NCBI GenBank assembly: GCA_015233365.1
Contig: JADFXU010000002.1
Span: 1 to 64,000 of the forward strand
DNA from: Nitrospirota bacterium
Lineage (GTDB): Bacteria > Nitrospirota > Thermodesulfovibrionia > Thermodesulfovibrionales > Dissulfurispiraceae
Direction: 5' to 3'
Length of the DNA stretch: 64,000 bases
Numbering within the stretch: the first letter of the stretch is position 1; every line of letters begins with the position of its first letter. Below, in pieces: positions 23,468 through 41,647 of the stretch. Both the position numbers and the translations under genes were made by a program. The notes under the pieces were generated by a model. The model worked only from the letters and a program-made list of their open reading frames with translations, was not told where the DNA came from and made no database searches.

Positions 23468-24067
23468 GTGAGCAGAAAAGAAAAAAGCGACCTTGCAATC
23501 GCCAATTACAGTAAGATCATTGAGTCGAACCCGAAAGATTACAGGGCTTACAACAATCGGGGCAATGCTTACCAGCAGCGGGGCGACTATGATCTTGCCA
23601 TCGCCGATTACAGCAAAGCCATTGAACTGAACCCTTCCTTCGACCTTTGCTACATCAACCGGGGCAACACTTATCAAAAGGCAGGAGATTACGGGCAAGC
23701 CATCGGTGATTATGACAGAGCGATTGCGATAAATCCGGCAAACAGTATGGCCTGGAACAACAGGGGTTTTGTGTATATGTTAATGCAGAAATATGACGAA
23801 GCCTGGAAGGACCTGAGAAAATCGATTGAGATCAACCCGAACAACATATACGCCTTGAACAGTGTGGCTGAATTCTATGCCGCCAAAAACAATGCCGCCG
23901 CTGCATGCAAGTGGCTGAACAAGGCAATTGAAAAGGGGTACAACAACTGGGGTTATATCAAGACATCCGATACGTACGACAATATCCGAAGCTCCGCCTG
24001 TTTCAAGAAGATAATAACAGACCTGATGGGCGAAAGGCGAAGGACTGAGGGCCAAGGACTGAGTTAA
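23468..24067 (+). CDS. TPR repeat protein
   Basis: About 199 residues made of tandem TPR units (NRGNAYQQRGDYDLAIADYS, NRGNTYQKAGDYGQAIGDYD, NRGFVYMLMQKYDEAWKDL), with a less regular C-terminus. No signal peptide with the chosen GTG start at 23468, which has AGGGG 8 nt upstream; the longer frame begins in a repeat arm. The final residues (GERRRTEGQGLS) are encoded by a heptamer arm. Likely a cytoplasmic protein-interaction scaffold. Partner unknown. Confidence 0.75.
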   Translation: MSRKEKSDLAIANYSKIIESNPKDYRAYNNRGNAYQQRGDYDLAIADYSKAIELNPSFDLCYINRGNTYQKAGDYGQAIGDYDRAIAINPANSMAWNNRGFVYMLMQKYDEAWKDLRKSIEINPNNIYALNSVAEFYAAKNNAAAACKWLNKAIEKGYNNWGYIKTSDTYDNIRSSACFKKIITDLMGERRRTEGQGLS

Positions 24068-24114
24068 GAAGTTGAAAACTTTCTTGCTCAGTCCTTGGCC
24101 CTCAGTCCTTCGCC
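24036..24114. repeat. Perfect 28-bp heptamer hairpin, GACTGAG/GGCCAAG words
   Basis: The left arm (24036-24063) is exactly four words: GGCGAAG, GACTGAG, GGCCAAG, GACTGAG. The right arm (24087-24114) is its perfect reverse complement. A 23-nt spacer separates them. It lies between convergent genes and could terminate both. It is the cleanest example of the family in the window. Confidence 0.93.
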
Positions 24115-24118
24115 TTGG

Positions 24119-25867
24119 TCAGCGAATGACTTCGAATATGCGATATTGGTCTGAAGGCACCTTCCCGACAGCAAACGGAAGCGGCCCAAACACATCCGAA
24201 TAGAAGCCGGCTCCGAGTTTACTGTTCGCTGTTGTTACAACGGCACTTTGGGGCACTTCGATTATTTCAATCAACCTGACGTATTCCTCATGCGGCAGGA
24301 AGTTGTTTGAACTGTTACGGGGAACAGCAAAGATATCACCCGGAGCTGGCCACAGTCGAACATCAAAAGGCTTTGCGCCGAACTCCTGCATGTAATACTG
24401 AAATCCCCAATGCCCTGTAAACCAGGTATTGTGCCCTTTGCTGATGTATTTGTCCCTGGTATCGGCGGCGGCTGCCCGGGCACTGTCGGCAAATTTATAG
24501 TCAGCCCAGGTCACTGCCAGCGATACAACCGCCGCCCCTATCAGAGGAATAAGTACTTGCCTCAGACAAACAGGTTTCCGAAGGCTTCTTCGTTGTTCCA
24601 TCCTGCGTCCTATCAGTATGCCTGCTGCCGGAACCATAGGGAGAATTGATCTTGCGGCTGTGGTCCAGTTGACAAAGGCGGCAAATACAAAAGTCCCCAT
24701 GACCCAGAGGAGCAACAGGCTTGAACCGGCGTCTTTTCGGTCCTTGAAGTCCAGTATGGAGATTGCCAGCAAACTGATACCGCTGCTGATGAATAGGCCA
24801 AACTCTAATGCGGCAATCCAGCGGGCAGCTGCGTCCGCGGGAAGCCGGTATGTCCCAATTGATCCGGCAGAGGCTACAACTACAGCCATGATAACCGTGA
24901 GTGCCGCCCCGGCAGAAACTTCTTTCCAGGACCAGATCAGATTTGTAAAGAGAAGAACTACGATAATGCAACCGCCTGTGAAAGACAGACCGACTAACAA
25001 CTTTGGCAAGGACCATCTCCCAAAATTCGACGGCGCATCGATAGCATATGAAGCTGCGTCCATAAGCAATCCATGGCCATAGAGCGAATGCGTCTCCCAT
25101 TGGTACCAGGCGAGGACGGCAACAGACAGCAGCATGAACAATGCCCAACGTCCGACACTGCGGCGCTTAAAAACCGAGTAGAATAACAGCAATGGAATAA
25201 GGGCCATGCCAAAATACTTCGTCAGGGCGCAAATTGGGATAAGTATGGCGGAAACCAAAAGCAGGGGGAATTTATTATTATCTACGCCCGAAACCCAGAA
25301 ATAAACGGCAAAAACCCAGAAGGCCAGCATCATTATATCGGACATAACTGTTGTGCTCGAAACCAGAAAGACAGGTGTCAGCAATGCGGCAAGGCCTGCC
25401 AATAACGGATGCATGCAGAATTTCTCTGCAATCAGAAAAGTGCCTGTGATAACGGCTATAGCCGGGATCAAGAAGGCGATGTGAAGCGCGGTCTCGTTCC
25501 ATCCCAAAATAGAGGCGACGGCAGCTATATAATACGAGACAATCGGAGGGTTTTTGTTGACATCCGCCATCCGCTCTTCGATCCCGTACCAGTTGACGTT
25601 GAACCCATAAGGATCAAGCGGATTAGCCTGTATATTTTTCGCGGTCCAGATGAACAGGGGGTCATCGATGTGAAAGGGTTTGCCCACGAATGGCAGAAGA
25701 CATAAAAAGGTAAGTACAACTAACAATAATATGCGGGCCTTTCTTTCCGGGCTGCTATTCTTCAGGATAACCTTTTCGGCATACTCCCCCAAGCCTCTTT
25801 TTTCCGGAGCGTTAATCGGCTCAAGAGGCTTTTCTTTAGATTTCCTTTTCTTTCTTTTCTCACCCAT
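24119..25867 (-). CDS. ArnT/PMT-like GT-C glycosyltransferase
   Basis: 582 residues with a basic N-terminal tail and about 10-12 hydrophobic helices. The first external loop has HIDDPLFIW, the acidic pair expected at the active site of ArnT/GT39-type enzymes, which use polyprenyl-phosphate sugar donors. PIVSYYIAA and a C-terminal periplasmic portion follow. The substrate is not visible. It is 15 nt downstream of the two TMTC-like genes, so all three probably form one operon for periplasmic glycosylation. Confidence 0.85.
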   Translation of the reverse strand: MGEKRKKRKSKEKPLEPINAPEKRGLGEYAEKVILKNSSPERKARILLLVVLTFLCLLPFVGKPFHIDDPLFIWTAKNIQANPLDPYGFNVNWYGIEERMADVNKNPPIVSYYIAAVASILGWNETALHIAFLIPAIAVITGTFLIAEKFCMHPLLAGLAALLTPVFLVSSTTVMSDIMMLAFWVFAVYFWVSGVDNNKFPLLLVSAILIPICALTKYFGMALIPLLLFYSVFKRRSVGRWALFMLLSVAVLAWYQWETHSLYGHGLLMDAASYAIDAPSNFGRWSLPKLLVGLSFTGGCIIVVLLFTNLIWSWKEVSAGAALTVIMAVVVASAGSIGTYRLPADAAARWIAALEFGLFISSGISLLAISILDFKDRKDAGSSLLLLWVMGTFVFAAFVNWTTAARSILPMVPAAGILIGRRMEQRRSLRKPVCLRQVLIPLIGAAVVSLAVTWADYKFADSARAAAADTRDKYISKGHNTWFTGHWGFQYYMQEFGAKPFDVRLWPAPGDIFAVPRNSSNNFLPHEEYVRLIEIIEVPQSAVVTTANSKLGAGFYSDVFGPLPFAVGKVPSDQYRIFEVIR

Positions 25868-25882: not shown

Positions 25883-25923
25883 TCAGCGCCTGACCTCTGA
25901 CGCTCGACGCTCGACGGTTTTTA
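25883..25923. repeat. One-armed heptamer array, GACGCTC words
   Basis: Two consecutive GACGCTC copies followed by GACGG, encoding the C-terminus of copy A. No complementary arm is evident. Confidence 0.5.
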
Positions 25924-27661
25924 ATAATTGCCGGGCTTTTTGATCATCCGGTTCTATTTCTAATCCTTTCTTCAATTCCCCATAAGCTTTTTCCATTTGC
26001 CCCATCCTGTAATAATCCAGTCCGAGGTTGAAATGAGCCCCGGCGAAATCAGGTTTCAGCCTGATAACGGTTTTAAATTCATCTGCTGCTTTCTCCGGCA
26101 TATAGAGGGCCTGATAGGTGCCGCCAAGATTGTAATGCGTATCAATATCATCCGGCTTCAGTCTAATGGAAATCAGAAATTCCTCTTCGGCCTTCTCAGG
26201 CATATTGCTGGAGTTATAGAAGACGCCGAGATTGTTATGGGCCAGAGGATTTTCAGGTTCCTTAGCGATAACATAAGTCCATAAAGTGAAGCTGTTTTTC
26301 CATACGGCAATCTGTTTATAGGTTAAAAATGACAGAGGACCAGCGATCAGGATTGCTGCAGCAATAACCAAACCCGCCCCTGCACCCTTCCGGAGATAGG
26401 ACTTTTTCCAGAGCCATGCAGCAAGTAGCCCAGCCACAATGAACGGGCCGAGACTGGGCAGATAAGTATACCTGTCCGCCATTGCCTGGCCCCCCACCTG
26501 AACGATGCCGAGCACAGGGAGCAGGGTGAGGACATAATAACCCCAAACAGCCAACCATAACCTTTGTTTCTTCATCATGACTATGCACGCTGCCGTAATG
26601 CCGGACACAAGAATGACCGATAAAAAATACTCTGCAGAGAACAGCGATATGTTCCTGGGATATGGATAATACGGTATCAGATTCACAGGCAATACCATTT
26701 TCCAAAGGTATGACAGGAGAGATTCGGCAGCCACAAGCATCCGTGGGGACAATGGTATTATTTCAAAAGTTTGTAATGCACCCCCTGCCTTTTGCGCCAG
26801 AACAGTAAGTACCGACGAAATAATACTCAAGGCAATAAGCGGGAGTTTCTCAAGGAGTGCGGACAGGAATGTTTTCATGGACCGGATTCTGTTAAAGGGA
26901 CAGCAGTCCAAAATAAGGAAAACTCCCGGCAGGGTGACTGCCATGGGCTTGCTTAAAAGGGCAAGGGCGCTCAGGCCTGCTACGAGCAGGTAATGCCTGT
27001 TCAGGAATGCCCCGGGATAATCTCCCTCTTTGGCAACGCTCACATATTTTGTATAAGCCAGTATGCTGAGCAGGAAAAACATTGCGCACAAGAGGTCCTT
27101 TCTCTCGGAAACCCATGCCACCGACTCCACATGAAGAGGGTGAAGACCGAACAATAAACCTGTCACTGCAGCAGCGACAAGATAACTCCCCTCCAGAGAG
27201 GAGCTATCAGTTGTTTTTGAGTTCCTGGCTTTTTGCAGGGGAGGGTTCTGTTGCCGTGAATGTTGCCATGCCTCCAGGAGTTTGGCAACCACAATTACCA
27301 CGATAAAGGTGTTGGCGGCGTGCAGAATATTGTTGGTCAGGTGGTGCCCCAGAGGATTCAACCCCCAGACGGCATAATCCAGGGCGTGGGAAAACCATGT
27401 CAGAGGGTGCCAGTTGGCGCAATAGAAAGCCGAAGACGCCCACCTGAAAAAAGATAAGTTAAGCGTATGTATATGCGGGTTCTTGTATATATAGCAGTCG
27501 TCATCCCACATCACGAATTCACTATGAAGGCAGGAGAAATAAACGACGAATGTCAGCAGAAAAACGGCTGTGGCAACCAAATATCTAACACTCAGTAATG
27601 ATTTTGTGTGCGGGGAATTTTGTACTTCGTCCTTCGGCTTTAACCTTTTGTCTTTAGTCAT
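25883..27661 (-). CDS. TMTC-like GT-C membrane protein with C-terminal TPRs (copy A)
   Basis: 592 residues. The N-terminal half has about 10 membrane helices and the conserved first loop EFVMWDDDCYIYKNPHIH and NWHPLTWFSHALD, as in TMTC-type putative O-mannosyltransferases. About four TPRs follow (for example AHNNLGVFYNSSNMPEKAEE). The central region (26289-27553) is apparently identical at DNA level to the upstream paralogue, whereas the N-terminal tail and TPRs differ. The start overlaps the upstream gene by 8 nt and its first codons come from a heptamer array. Glycosylation role inferred. Confidence 0.82.
   Translation of the reverse strand: MTKDKRLKPKDEVQNSPHTKSLLSVRYLVATAVFLLTFVVYFSCLHSEFVMWDDDCYIYKNPHIHTLNLSFFRWASSAFYCANWHPLTWFSHALDYAVWGLNPLGHHLTNNILHAANTFIVVIVVAKLLEAWQHSRQQNPPLQKARNSKTTDSSSLEGSYLVAAAVTGLLFGLHPLHVESVAWVSERKDLLCAMFFLLSILAYTKYVSVAKEGDYPGAFLNRHYLLVAGLSALALLSKPMAVTLPGVFLILDCCPFNRIRSMKTFLSALLEKLPLIALSIISSVLTVLAQKAGGALQTFEIIPLSPRMLVAAESLLSYLWKMVLPVNLIPYYPYPRNISLFSAEYFLSVILVSGITAACIVMMKKQRLWLAVWGYYVLTLLPVLGIVQVGGQAMADRYTYLPSLGPFIVAGLLAAWLWKKSYLRKGAGAGLVIAAAILIAGPLSFLTYKQIAVWKNSFTLWTYVIAKEPENPLAHNNLGVFYNSSNMPEKAEEEFLISIRLKPDDIDTHYNLGGTYQALYMPEKAADEFKTVIRLKPDFAGAHFNLGLDYYRMGQMEKAYGELKKGLEIEPDDQKARQLLKTVERRASEVRR
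26289..27553. repeat. 1265-bp direct repeat, copy A
   Basis: By reading and by matching sub-segments it appears identical to 28264-29528, at a constant offset of 1975 bp. Both ends are sharp: flanking coding sequence within the same two genes diverges. It covers the membrane domain of the TMTC-like proteins. Confidence 0.92.
27618..27661. repeat. One-armed heptamer array, CCTTTTG/TCTTTAG words
   Basis: Four words TCCTTCG, GCTTTAA, CCTTTTG, TCTTTAG at the junction of the two TMTC-like genes. They encode the first residues of copy A. No nearby complementary arm was found. Confidence 0.55.
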
Positions 27662-29636
27662 TAACCCGCAGCCTCTTTGTTATTTCTTCCAACAATTGCC
27701 GGGCCTGTTGATTGTCCGGCCTTATTTCCAACCCTCGAGCCAATTCACTTCGCGCCCTTTCCATCTGTCCCATTTTATAGTAGACATATCCAAGATAGAA
27801 ATGCGCCTCAGCGAAATCAGGTTGCAACCTGACTGCGGCCAGAAATTCCTCTTCGGCCTTGTCAGGCATATTGCCGGAGTTATAGAAGACGCCGAGATTA
27901 AAATGCGCCCCGGCATTATCGGGTTTCAGTCTAATAACGGTCAGGAATTCTTTCTCAGCCTTGTCAGGCATATTGCGGGCTTGATATAAGACGCCGAGAT
28001 TGGTATGCGCTTCAATGTTATCAGGCTTCAGGCTGACAGCGGTCAGAAATTCCTCTTCGGCCTTGTCAGGCATGTTAAGGGACTTATAGACGAACCCAAG
28101 ATTATTATGCGCCTCAGCGTAACCAGGCCGCAGCCTGATGGCAGTCAGGTATTGTTCGATGGCCTTGTCAGGCATGTTGAGATGGCGATAGACAATGCCG
28201 AGATTGTAATGTGCCAAGGGGGCATCTTCAGGTTCCTTCCCGGCAATATAACTCCAAAGGTTCAAGCTGTTTTTCCATACGGCAATCTGTTTATAGGTTA
28301 AAAATGACAGAGGACCAGCGATCAGGATTGCTGCAGCAATAACCAAACCCGCCCCTGCACCCTTCCGGAGATAGGACTTTTTCCAGAGCCATGCAGCAAG
28401 TAGCCCAGCCACAATGAACGGGCCGAGACTGGGCAGATAAGTATACCTGTCCGCCATTGCCTGGCCCCCCACCTGAACGATGCCGAGCACAGGGAGCAGG
28501 GTGAGGACATAATAACCCCAAACAGCCAACCATAACCTTTGTTTCTTCATCATGACTATGCACGCTGCCGTAATGCCGGACACAAGAATGACCGATAAAA
28601 AATACTCTGCAGAGAACAGCGATATGTTCCTGGGATATGGATAATACGGTATCAGATTCACAGGCAATACCATTTTCCAAAGGTATGACAGGAGAGATTC
28701 GGCAGCCACAAGCATCCGTGGGGACAATGGTATTATTTCAAAAGTTTGTAATGCACCCCCTGCCTTTTGCGCCAGAACAGTAAGTACCGACGAAATAATA
28801 CTCAAGGCAATAAGCGGGAGTTTCTCAAGGAGTGCGGACAGGAATGTTTTCATGGACCGGATTCTGTTAAAGGGACAGCAGTCCAAAATAAGGAAAACTC
28901 CCGGCAGGGTGACTGCCATGGGCTTGCTTAAAAGGGCAAGGGCGCTCAGGCCTGCTACGAGCAGGTAATGCCTGTTCAGGAATGCCCCGGGATAATCTCC
29001 CTCTTTGGCAACGCTCACATATTTTGTATAAGCCAGTATGCTGAGCAGGAAAAACATTGCGCACAAGAGGTCCTTTCTCTCGGAAACCCATGCCACCGAC
29101 TCCACATGAAGAGGGTGAAGACCGAACAATAAACCTGTCACTGCAGCAGCGACAAGATAACTCCCCTCCAGAGAGGAGCTATCAGTTGTTTTTGAGTTCC
29201 TGGCTTTTTGCAGGGGAGGGTTCTGTTGCCGTGAATGTTGCCATGCCTCCAGGAGTTTGGCAACCACAATTACCACGATAAAGGTGTTGGCGGCGTGCAG
29301 AATATTGTTGGTCAGGTGGTGCCCCAGAGGATTCAACCCCCAGACGGCATAATCCAGGGCGTGGGAAAACCATGTCAGAGGGTGCCAGTTGGCGCAATAG
29401 AAAGCCGAAGACGCCCACCTGAAAAAAGATAAGTTAAGCGTATGTATATGCGGGTTCTTGTATATATAGCAGTCGTCATCCCACATCACGAATTCACTAT
29501 GAAGGCAGGAGAAATAAACGACGAATGTTATGAGTGCAACAGCAGCCGCAATATAATATTTAATATTAGTGAGTCTCCCGGGATTGGAGAAGGGGTTCTT
29601 CACCGGGTTATAAGTTTCTTTGTTCTTCTTTTTCAT
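27654..29636 (-). CDS. TMTC-like GT-C membrane protein with C-terminal TPRs (copy B)
   Basis: 660 residues with the same architecture as copy A: a GT-C-like membrane half with WDDDCYIYKNPHIH, then about six TPRs (for example AHYNLGIVYRHLNMPDKAIEQ). The 21-residue difference at the N-terminus and the extra TPRs show that the two genes differ outside the shared core. It is the first gene of the probable three-gene glycosylation operon. No good promoter was identified upstream. Family function (sugar transfer from a polyprenyl carrier) is inferred. Confidence 0.82.
   Translation of the reverse strand: MKKKNKETYNPVKNPFSNPGRLTNIKYYIAAAVALITFVVYFSCLHSEFVMWDDDCYIYKNPHIHTLNLSFFRWASSAFYCANWHPLTWFSHALDYAVWGLNPLGHHLTNNILHAANTFIVVIVVAKLLEAWQHSRQQNPPLQKARNSKTTDSSSLEGSYLVAAAVTGLLFGLHPLHVESVAWVSERKDLLCAMFFLLSILAYTKYVSVAKEGDYPGAFLNRHYLLVAGLSALALLSKPMAVTLPGVFLILDCCPFNRIRSMKTFLSALLEKLPLIALSIISSVLTVLAQKAGGALQTFEIIPLSPRMLVAAESLLSYLWKMVLPVNLIPYYPYPRNISLFSAEYFLSVILVSGITAACIVMMKKQRLWLAVWGYYVLTLLPVLGIVQVGGQAMADRYTYLPSLGPFIVAGLLAAWLWKKSYLRKGAGAGLVIAAAILIAGPLSFLTYKQIAVWKNSLNLWSYIAGKEPEDAPLAHYNLGIVYRHLNMPDKAIEQYLTAIRLRPGYAEAHNNLGFVYKSLNMPDKAEEEFLTAVSLKPDNIEAHTNLGVLYQARNMPDKAEKEFLTVIRLKPDNAGAHFNLGVFYNSGNMPDKAEEEFLAAVRLQPDFAEAHFYLGYVYYKMGQMERARSELARGLEIRPDNQQARQLLEEITKRLRVND
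28264..29528. repeat. 1265-bp direct repeat, copy B
   Basis: Partner of 26289-27553. No mismatch was noticed in the segments compared by eye. Confidence 0.92.
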
Positions 29637-32262: not shown

Positions 32263-32346
32263 GGATGTTGAATGTTGAATTTTGGATGTTAAATTATGGA
32301 AGTTTTTTCCCTTAATTCAACATTTAGCATTCAACATTCAACATTT
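32263..32346. repeat. Heptamer inverted array, TGTTGAA words, at rpoC end
   Basis: Left arm ATGTTGA-type words and right arm complement, four each, with a spacer of about 17 nt. It sits just after the rpoC stop (minus strand) and may terminate the rpo operon. Confidence 0.88.
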
Positions 32347-32353
32347 CTACTTG

Positions 32354-41510: not shown

Positions 41511-41564
41511 AAGATTCCTCCTTTCCCAGAGACCAGCTTTCAGTTGGCAGTTAAAAGCAAAAAA

Positions 41565-41647
41565 GAAATGTTGAATGTTGAATGCTGAATGTTGAATTAA
41601 TGTAAAGTTCCATAATTTAACATTAAAAATTCAACATTCAACATTTC
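41565..41647. repeat. Heptamer inverted array, GTTGAAT words
   Basis: Left arm GTTGAAT, GTTGAAT, GCTGAAT, GTTGAAT. Right arm four complementary words. It lies inside the rplJ leader, between the candidate L10-binding region and the rplJ start. Confidence 0.88.

Follow-up and report, generated by a model that had tools for sequence, protein, structure and literature searches.

Probable recurrent recombination within the membrane core of neighbouring TMTC-like genes in a Nitrospirota bacterium

Introduction

The O-mannosyltransferases TMTC1-4 belong to the GT-C/PMT clan and carry a DUF1736 domain, and full-length homologues exist in prokaryotes. One of their motifs, K-E-(T/Q)-x-x-T (M4), carries the metal-binding glutamate (PMC7801869). 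Gene conversion is known between prokaryotic paralogues, and long-lasting cases that extend over the full length are rare; the study in question dealt with such evolution in 26 genes (PMC6053082). Among the papers covered by a literature search, none reports gene conversion in the TMTC-like family. A different kind of modular gene is represented by Rhs, in which the displaced C-terminal tips are exchanged cassettes.

Here, we describe two adjacent TMTC-like genes, A and B, in a Nitrospirota genome (G000); the window, that is, the whole stretch of DNA that was analysed, comprises 64,000 nucleotides. The pair shares several features with concerted evolution as described in PMC6053082: paralogues within a genome resemble each other more closely than they do orthologues, and tandem duplicates are among the cases. 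However, that study deals with full-length concerted evolution, whereas A and B are homogenised in an internal domain only, with divergence at both ends. The joining of a conserved core to variable ends is also reminiscent of Rhs genes (PMC2935791). Unlike those of Rhs, the ends of A and B are the homologous ends of old paralogues and not exchanged cassettes.

Organization of the gene pair

The two genes lie in tandem, B being the upstream member, with an overlap of 8 nt between the stop of B and the start of A (Table 1). The original prediction stated that both contain an exact core of 1265 bp at an offset of 1975 bp, and this is confirmed: there are 0 mismatches, and it is the sole long exact run at that offset. 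Both genes enter the identical stretch at codon 37, in the same phase, and leave it in codon 458, where the membrane domain ends. A genome-wide DNA search recovers the core in two copies only, those of A and B, and a protein search of the genome reveals no third gene with this core. The unique 710-bp stretch between the cores indicates that the tandem order is real and old. Hybrids combining the N-terminus of B with the C-terminus of A (592 aa), or the N-terminus of A with the C-terminus of B (660 aa), around the core are both open reading frames.

Table 1. Features of the tandem pair and its surroundings in the window
Feature	Position	Strand	Basis
Gene B, 660 aa, TMTC-like, TM core and about six TPR units, upstream member	27654..29636	-	ORF; TPR Pfam matches in tail
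Gene A, 592 aa, TMTC-like, core as in B, shorter TPR tail	25883..27661	-	ORF, Pfam, sequence
Core of B (residues 37-457), from the second half of TM1 through EL1 (WDDD) to the last TM helix	28264..29528	-	Exact match; hydropathy, motif positions
Core copy in A, identical to 28264-29528	26289..27553	-	Exact match
Unique 710-bp stretch between the cores: TPR tail of B and N-terminus of A	27554..28263	-	Sequence comparison
Diverged N-terminal 36 codons of B	29529..29636	-	Sequence comparison
Diverged TPR tail of A	25883..26288	-	Sequence comparison
Downstream co-oriented GT-C-type gene (PMT_2, PF13231), 15 bp past A	24119..25867	-	ORF, Pfam

The TPR tails (27790-28215 and 26022-26243) are made of 102-bp (34-aa) units. 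The tail of B is about two to three units longer than that of A, indicating that the tails also evolve by gain and loss of units. Elsewhere, in a TMTC-like gene of a Methylomirabilota MAG (L034:7347-7925), TPR units spaced 306 bp apart are 94% identical over 273 bp, which would represent a recent TPR amplification.

The surroundings contain two further repeats. A strong hairpin (24034-24116; 40-bp arms, 90% complementary, 3-bp spacer) sits between convergent genes ending at 24067 (+) and 24119 (-), and probably represents either a palindromic repeat or a terminator acting in both directions. A 43-bp inverted repeat (32306-32348 and 41564-41606) has copies that are 93% complementary and 9.2 kb apart; it contains a TTCAACATT-like repeated motif and is possibly a dispersed intergenic repeat.

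Relation to TMTC proteins

A and B are probably GT-C-like membrane glycosyltransferases with C-terminal TPRs, as suggested by their domain layout and motifs. In common with TMTC1-4 (PMC7801869), they have an N-terminal domain of several TM helices whose first outer loop carries a DD motif, together with RxD and lysine...threonine motifs, the conserved Arg of (E/D)RxxY and TPRs arrayed at the C-terminus; Pfam TPR matches are found in the tails of both. The first of these motifs appears as WDDD in the loop after TM1 (residues 52-55 of B), the RxD motif (M3) as SERKD, and the M7 arginine, which precedes the late TM helix, is present in DRYTY (396-400). Among five homologues, W52, D53 and D54, R187 and D189, and R397 are all invariant. 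The M4 motif, in contrast, reads SKPMAVT: Lys238 is kept, while a proline occupies the position of the metal-binding glutamate of the K-E-T motif in TMTC1-4 (PMC7801869). There is also no Pfam match to DUF1736, and the membrane core is without any Pfam match at an E-value of 0.001. On account of the proline and the lacking DUF1736 match, the proteins are designated here as TMTC-like and not as members of the TMTC group. In an AlphaFold model of B, the TPRs (residues ~490 to 650) have a pLDDT of ~90, and the membrane part, modelled with 5 sequences in the input, is mostly below 60.

Among named relatives, the nearest that were found are Nitrospirae MAGs, for instance L033. In this order, TMTC-like genes frequently occur as pairs or larger arrays.

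Divergence inside and outside the core

Between A and B, the core has 0 changes at ~304 synonymous sites. Identity drops at once beyond both edges, and the divergence of the N-terminal and TPR regions that had been predicted within these genes is substantial. The N-terminal 36 codons are 49% identical in nucleotides, with a pS of 0.77, and the TPR tails following the core are ~62% identical, with a pS of 0.59-0.66 and a pN of 0.22-0.32, ranges that reflect different alignments of the TPR units. For a core as diverged as its flanks (62-75% identity), the chance of 1265 matching bases would be 10^-158 or less; a permutation test of the internal tract against the flanks gave 0 of 2000. Since the flanks are near saturation, a simple recent duplication, which had already been judged the poorer explanation from the sequence, is excluded.

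A more elaborate form of this idea supposes a recent tandem duplication after which the N-terminus and TPR tail of one copy were replaced by foreign sequence. The core is indeed identical, and repeats are readily gained and lost in TPR tails, in units of 102 bp. However, two independent replacements would be needed, both ending at the core edge and both keeping homologous TM1 and TPR ends; moreover, the near-saturated flanks are homologous and have a pN below pS, as in old paralogues, and the partial internal core tracts seen in relatives fit conversion rather than duplication of a whole gene. Such a history is highly improbable.

Shared tracts in related genomes

The longest run of identical codons was compared between adjacent mates, unlinked pairs of the same genome and cross-genome pairs, all within the subfamily of the query. 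Significant runs occur in eight of nine adjacent pairs, and seven of them exceed every control pair. Their lengths are 421 codons in the window, 42 in G081:C8 and in G174:C75, 30 in L033/G082 and in G085, 25 in G081:C37, 16 in G135 and 11 in G173. The ninth pair (L224/G161) is without a tract, its longest run being 4 codons. The controls reach at most 8 codons in unlinked pairs of the same genome (n=11) and 11 in cross-genome pairs (n=501), so that the run in G173 equals the cross-genome maximum and is borderline by that control alone. In G046, two core-bearing genes occupy one locus with other genes between them, and the longest run is 5 codons. All runs above the permutation threshold in the subfamily are located in the membrane core and none in the ends. 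This contrast between adjacent and unlinked pairs supports gene conversion, one of the two explanations that the original prediction had preferred.

In G081, contig C8 starts with exactly 127 bp identical to the core of the downstream mate, and an identity of 98% continues for 262 bp before falling at the TPR junction. At the protein level, the core tails of these two mates are 99% identical and their TPRs 61% and 50%, and the core tail of each mate is only 40-63% identical in amino acids to the copies of relatives. The contig of the G174 pair likewise starts with exactly 127 bp common to the core of its downstream mate. Both contig starts look like the same kind of graph loop left unresolved, a shared tract being where a graph with k=127 breaks. 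In two genomes other than G000, contigs (L220:1-127 and L213:1-127) start with exactly 127 bp that recur in the core of the next gene. In G082/L033, G085 and G081:C37, the mates share runs of 75-92 bp. With a length below 127 bp, these would escape merging in a k=127 graph; they would therefore be real if those assemblies used a similar k.

One relative of the same genus, G001, has two copies on different contigs, with a core identity of 75% in nucleotides, no shared tract and a longest run of 7 codons. The core of the window is 64-65% identical to these copies, against 100% between A and B, and in the core tree A=B stands beside both G001 copies. Synteny with G001 is restricted to a 46-residue Mut7-C match, and the downstream GT-C gene has no homologue there. 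As the G001 copies are non-tandem and share no tract, no close orthologous pair dates the event. Trees of the N-terminal or TPR segments are no help in dating the duplication either, these segments being too short and too diverged.

Identity without any recombination might also be produced by very strong purifying selection on the DNA itself, such as on an overlapping element, and no other part of the protein is as well conserved as the core. This explanation is already refuted by the low identity to G001 and by the unlinked and cross-genome copies, which never exceed runs of 8-11 codons.

The sharing of cores by tandem TMTC-like mates is not general and fails in other subfamilies. In genus g18, the pairs keep their orthology across three species, with mates ~50% identical in nucleotides, and two of these pairs lie in a single-contig genome. 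In g56 and others, there are no significant runs except one of 8 codons in L054. Cores as diverged as their flanks, which the original prediction regarded as speaking against it, are thus encountered only in other subfamilies, such as that of g18, and in the non-tandem G001 pair; tandem mates of the same subfamily repeatedly share core tracts.

Possible contribution of the assembly

The contig ends of G000 overlap exactly, by 127 bp between the start of C2 and the end of C59, and by 126 bp between the start of C23 and C13, C16 and C59; N-reading stretches (e.g., the ends of C53, C54, C56, C57 and C58) were set aside in this comparison. These overlaps identify G000 as a k=127 short-read de Bruijn assembly. 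Because a 1265-bp repeat exceeds the span of short reads, the path from left flank over core, middle and core to right flank was most likely deduced from a loop in the graph, and both the exact identity and the number of units (two or more) presumably derive from graph topology.

It could be imagined that the cores are really ~97-99.9% identical and that bulge collapse in the de Bruijn assembler wrote one consensus into both. Recombination would still be required, but the perfect identity, and with it the very recent conversion, would not be real. The k=127 signature of the contig ends is in line with this, as is the fact that no 16S gene was found in the G000 assembly. Furthermore, according to a review (PMC8021871), metaSPAdes removes bulges so aggressively that most differences between strains are collapsed, and few repeats are resolved when metagenomes are assembled from short reads; the corresponding tract in G081 is 98% identical and not 100%. 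On the other hand, such polishing leaves the contrast between core and flanks unexplained. Among simulated sequences of 1265 bp, a 127-mer is shared by none at 90% identity, 12% at 95%, 59% at 97% and 90% at 98%, and pairs at or below 90% essentially never share one. Since merging requires shared 127-mers, the cores must already have been ~97% identical or better. Collapse can polish near-identical cores, but diverged ones cannot be turned into a shared core in this way. Of the read collapse that had been proposed for this locus, the power to bring the cores to exact identity in a k=127 assembly stands and the power to generate the shared core does not. We regard polishing of this kind as possible, though rather unlikely.

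A more radical view is that the tandem is a chimera, with a single core or a second gene that has a different core. Short-read graph loops can be mis-threaded, and metagenomes hold mixtures of strains. Against this, the 710-bp middle joins the tail of B to the start of A in an operon-like overlap and needs a core on either side, the graph must contain each of the four core junctions, and relatives have pairs in the same tandem arrangement that share core tracts. A pure artefact is very unlikely.

Probable recombination between neighbours

The explanation that we favour, with a probability of roughly 0.8, is that A and B form an old tandem GT-C-like/TPR pair in which homologous recombination between neighbours would repeatedly have overwritten the membrane core, the latest time over the whole 1265 bp. 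Each event would replace part of the core of one neighbour with that of the other, and the window, with its whole core homogenised, would be the extreme case of a recurrent process. The agent would presumably be RecA-type recombination. The N-terminal and TPR ends would already be too diverged to pair, thereby setting the edges of the tracts. As for the direction, transfer from B to A seems slightly favoured: the GC3 of the core (0.553) equals that of the B tail (0.552) and not that of the A tail (0.481). The events may be either non-reciprocal gene conversion or unequal crossing-over with expansion and contraction, the footprints of the two being the same.

Within the proteins, conservation is highest in the core, and the restriction of tracts to it may therefore be mechanical and need not imply selection for a uniform core. 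A uniform core with diverse TPRs might nevertheless have a selective value. Going further, the tandem GT-C/TPR transferases of this bacterial group could be speculated to constitute a modular recombining system, in which the catalytic membrane domain is interchangeable through ongoing conversion, TPR tails diverge as recognition modules and crossovers within the core give in-frame hybrids; at present this is a doubtful and very tentative proposal.

Some caution is advisable with exact identity in short-read assemblies of this kind, which may be consensus. Core tracts such as these are likely to be under-reported, since short-read contigs break exactly inside them, and tandem arrays of TMTC-like genes are probably under-counted for the same reason. 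In-frame hybrids and copy-number variants are predicted to occur in long-read populations. The pattern would represent domain-limited, recurrent gene conversion that occurs across several families of one order in the little-studied TMTC-like proteins of bacteria.
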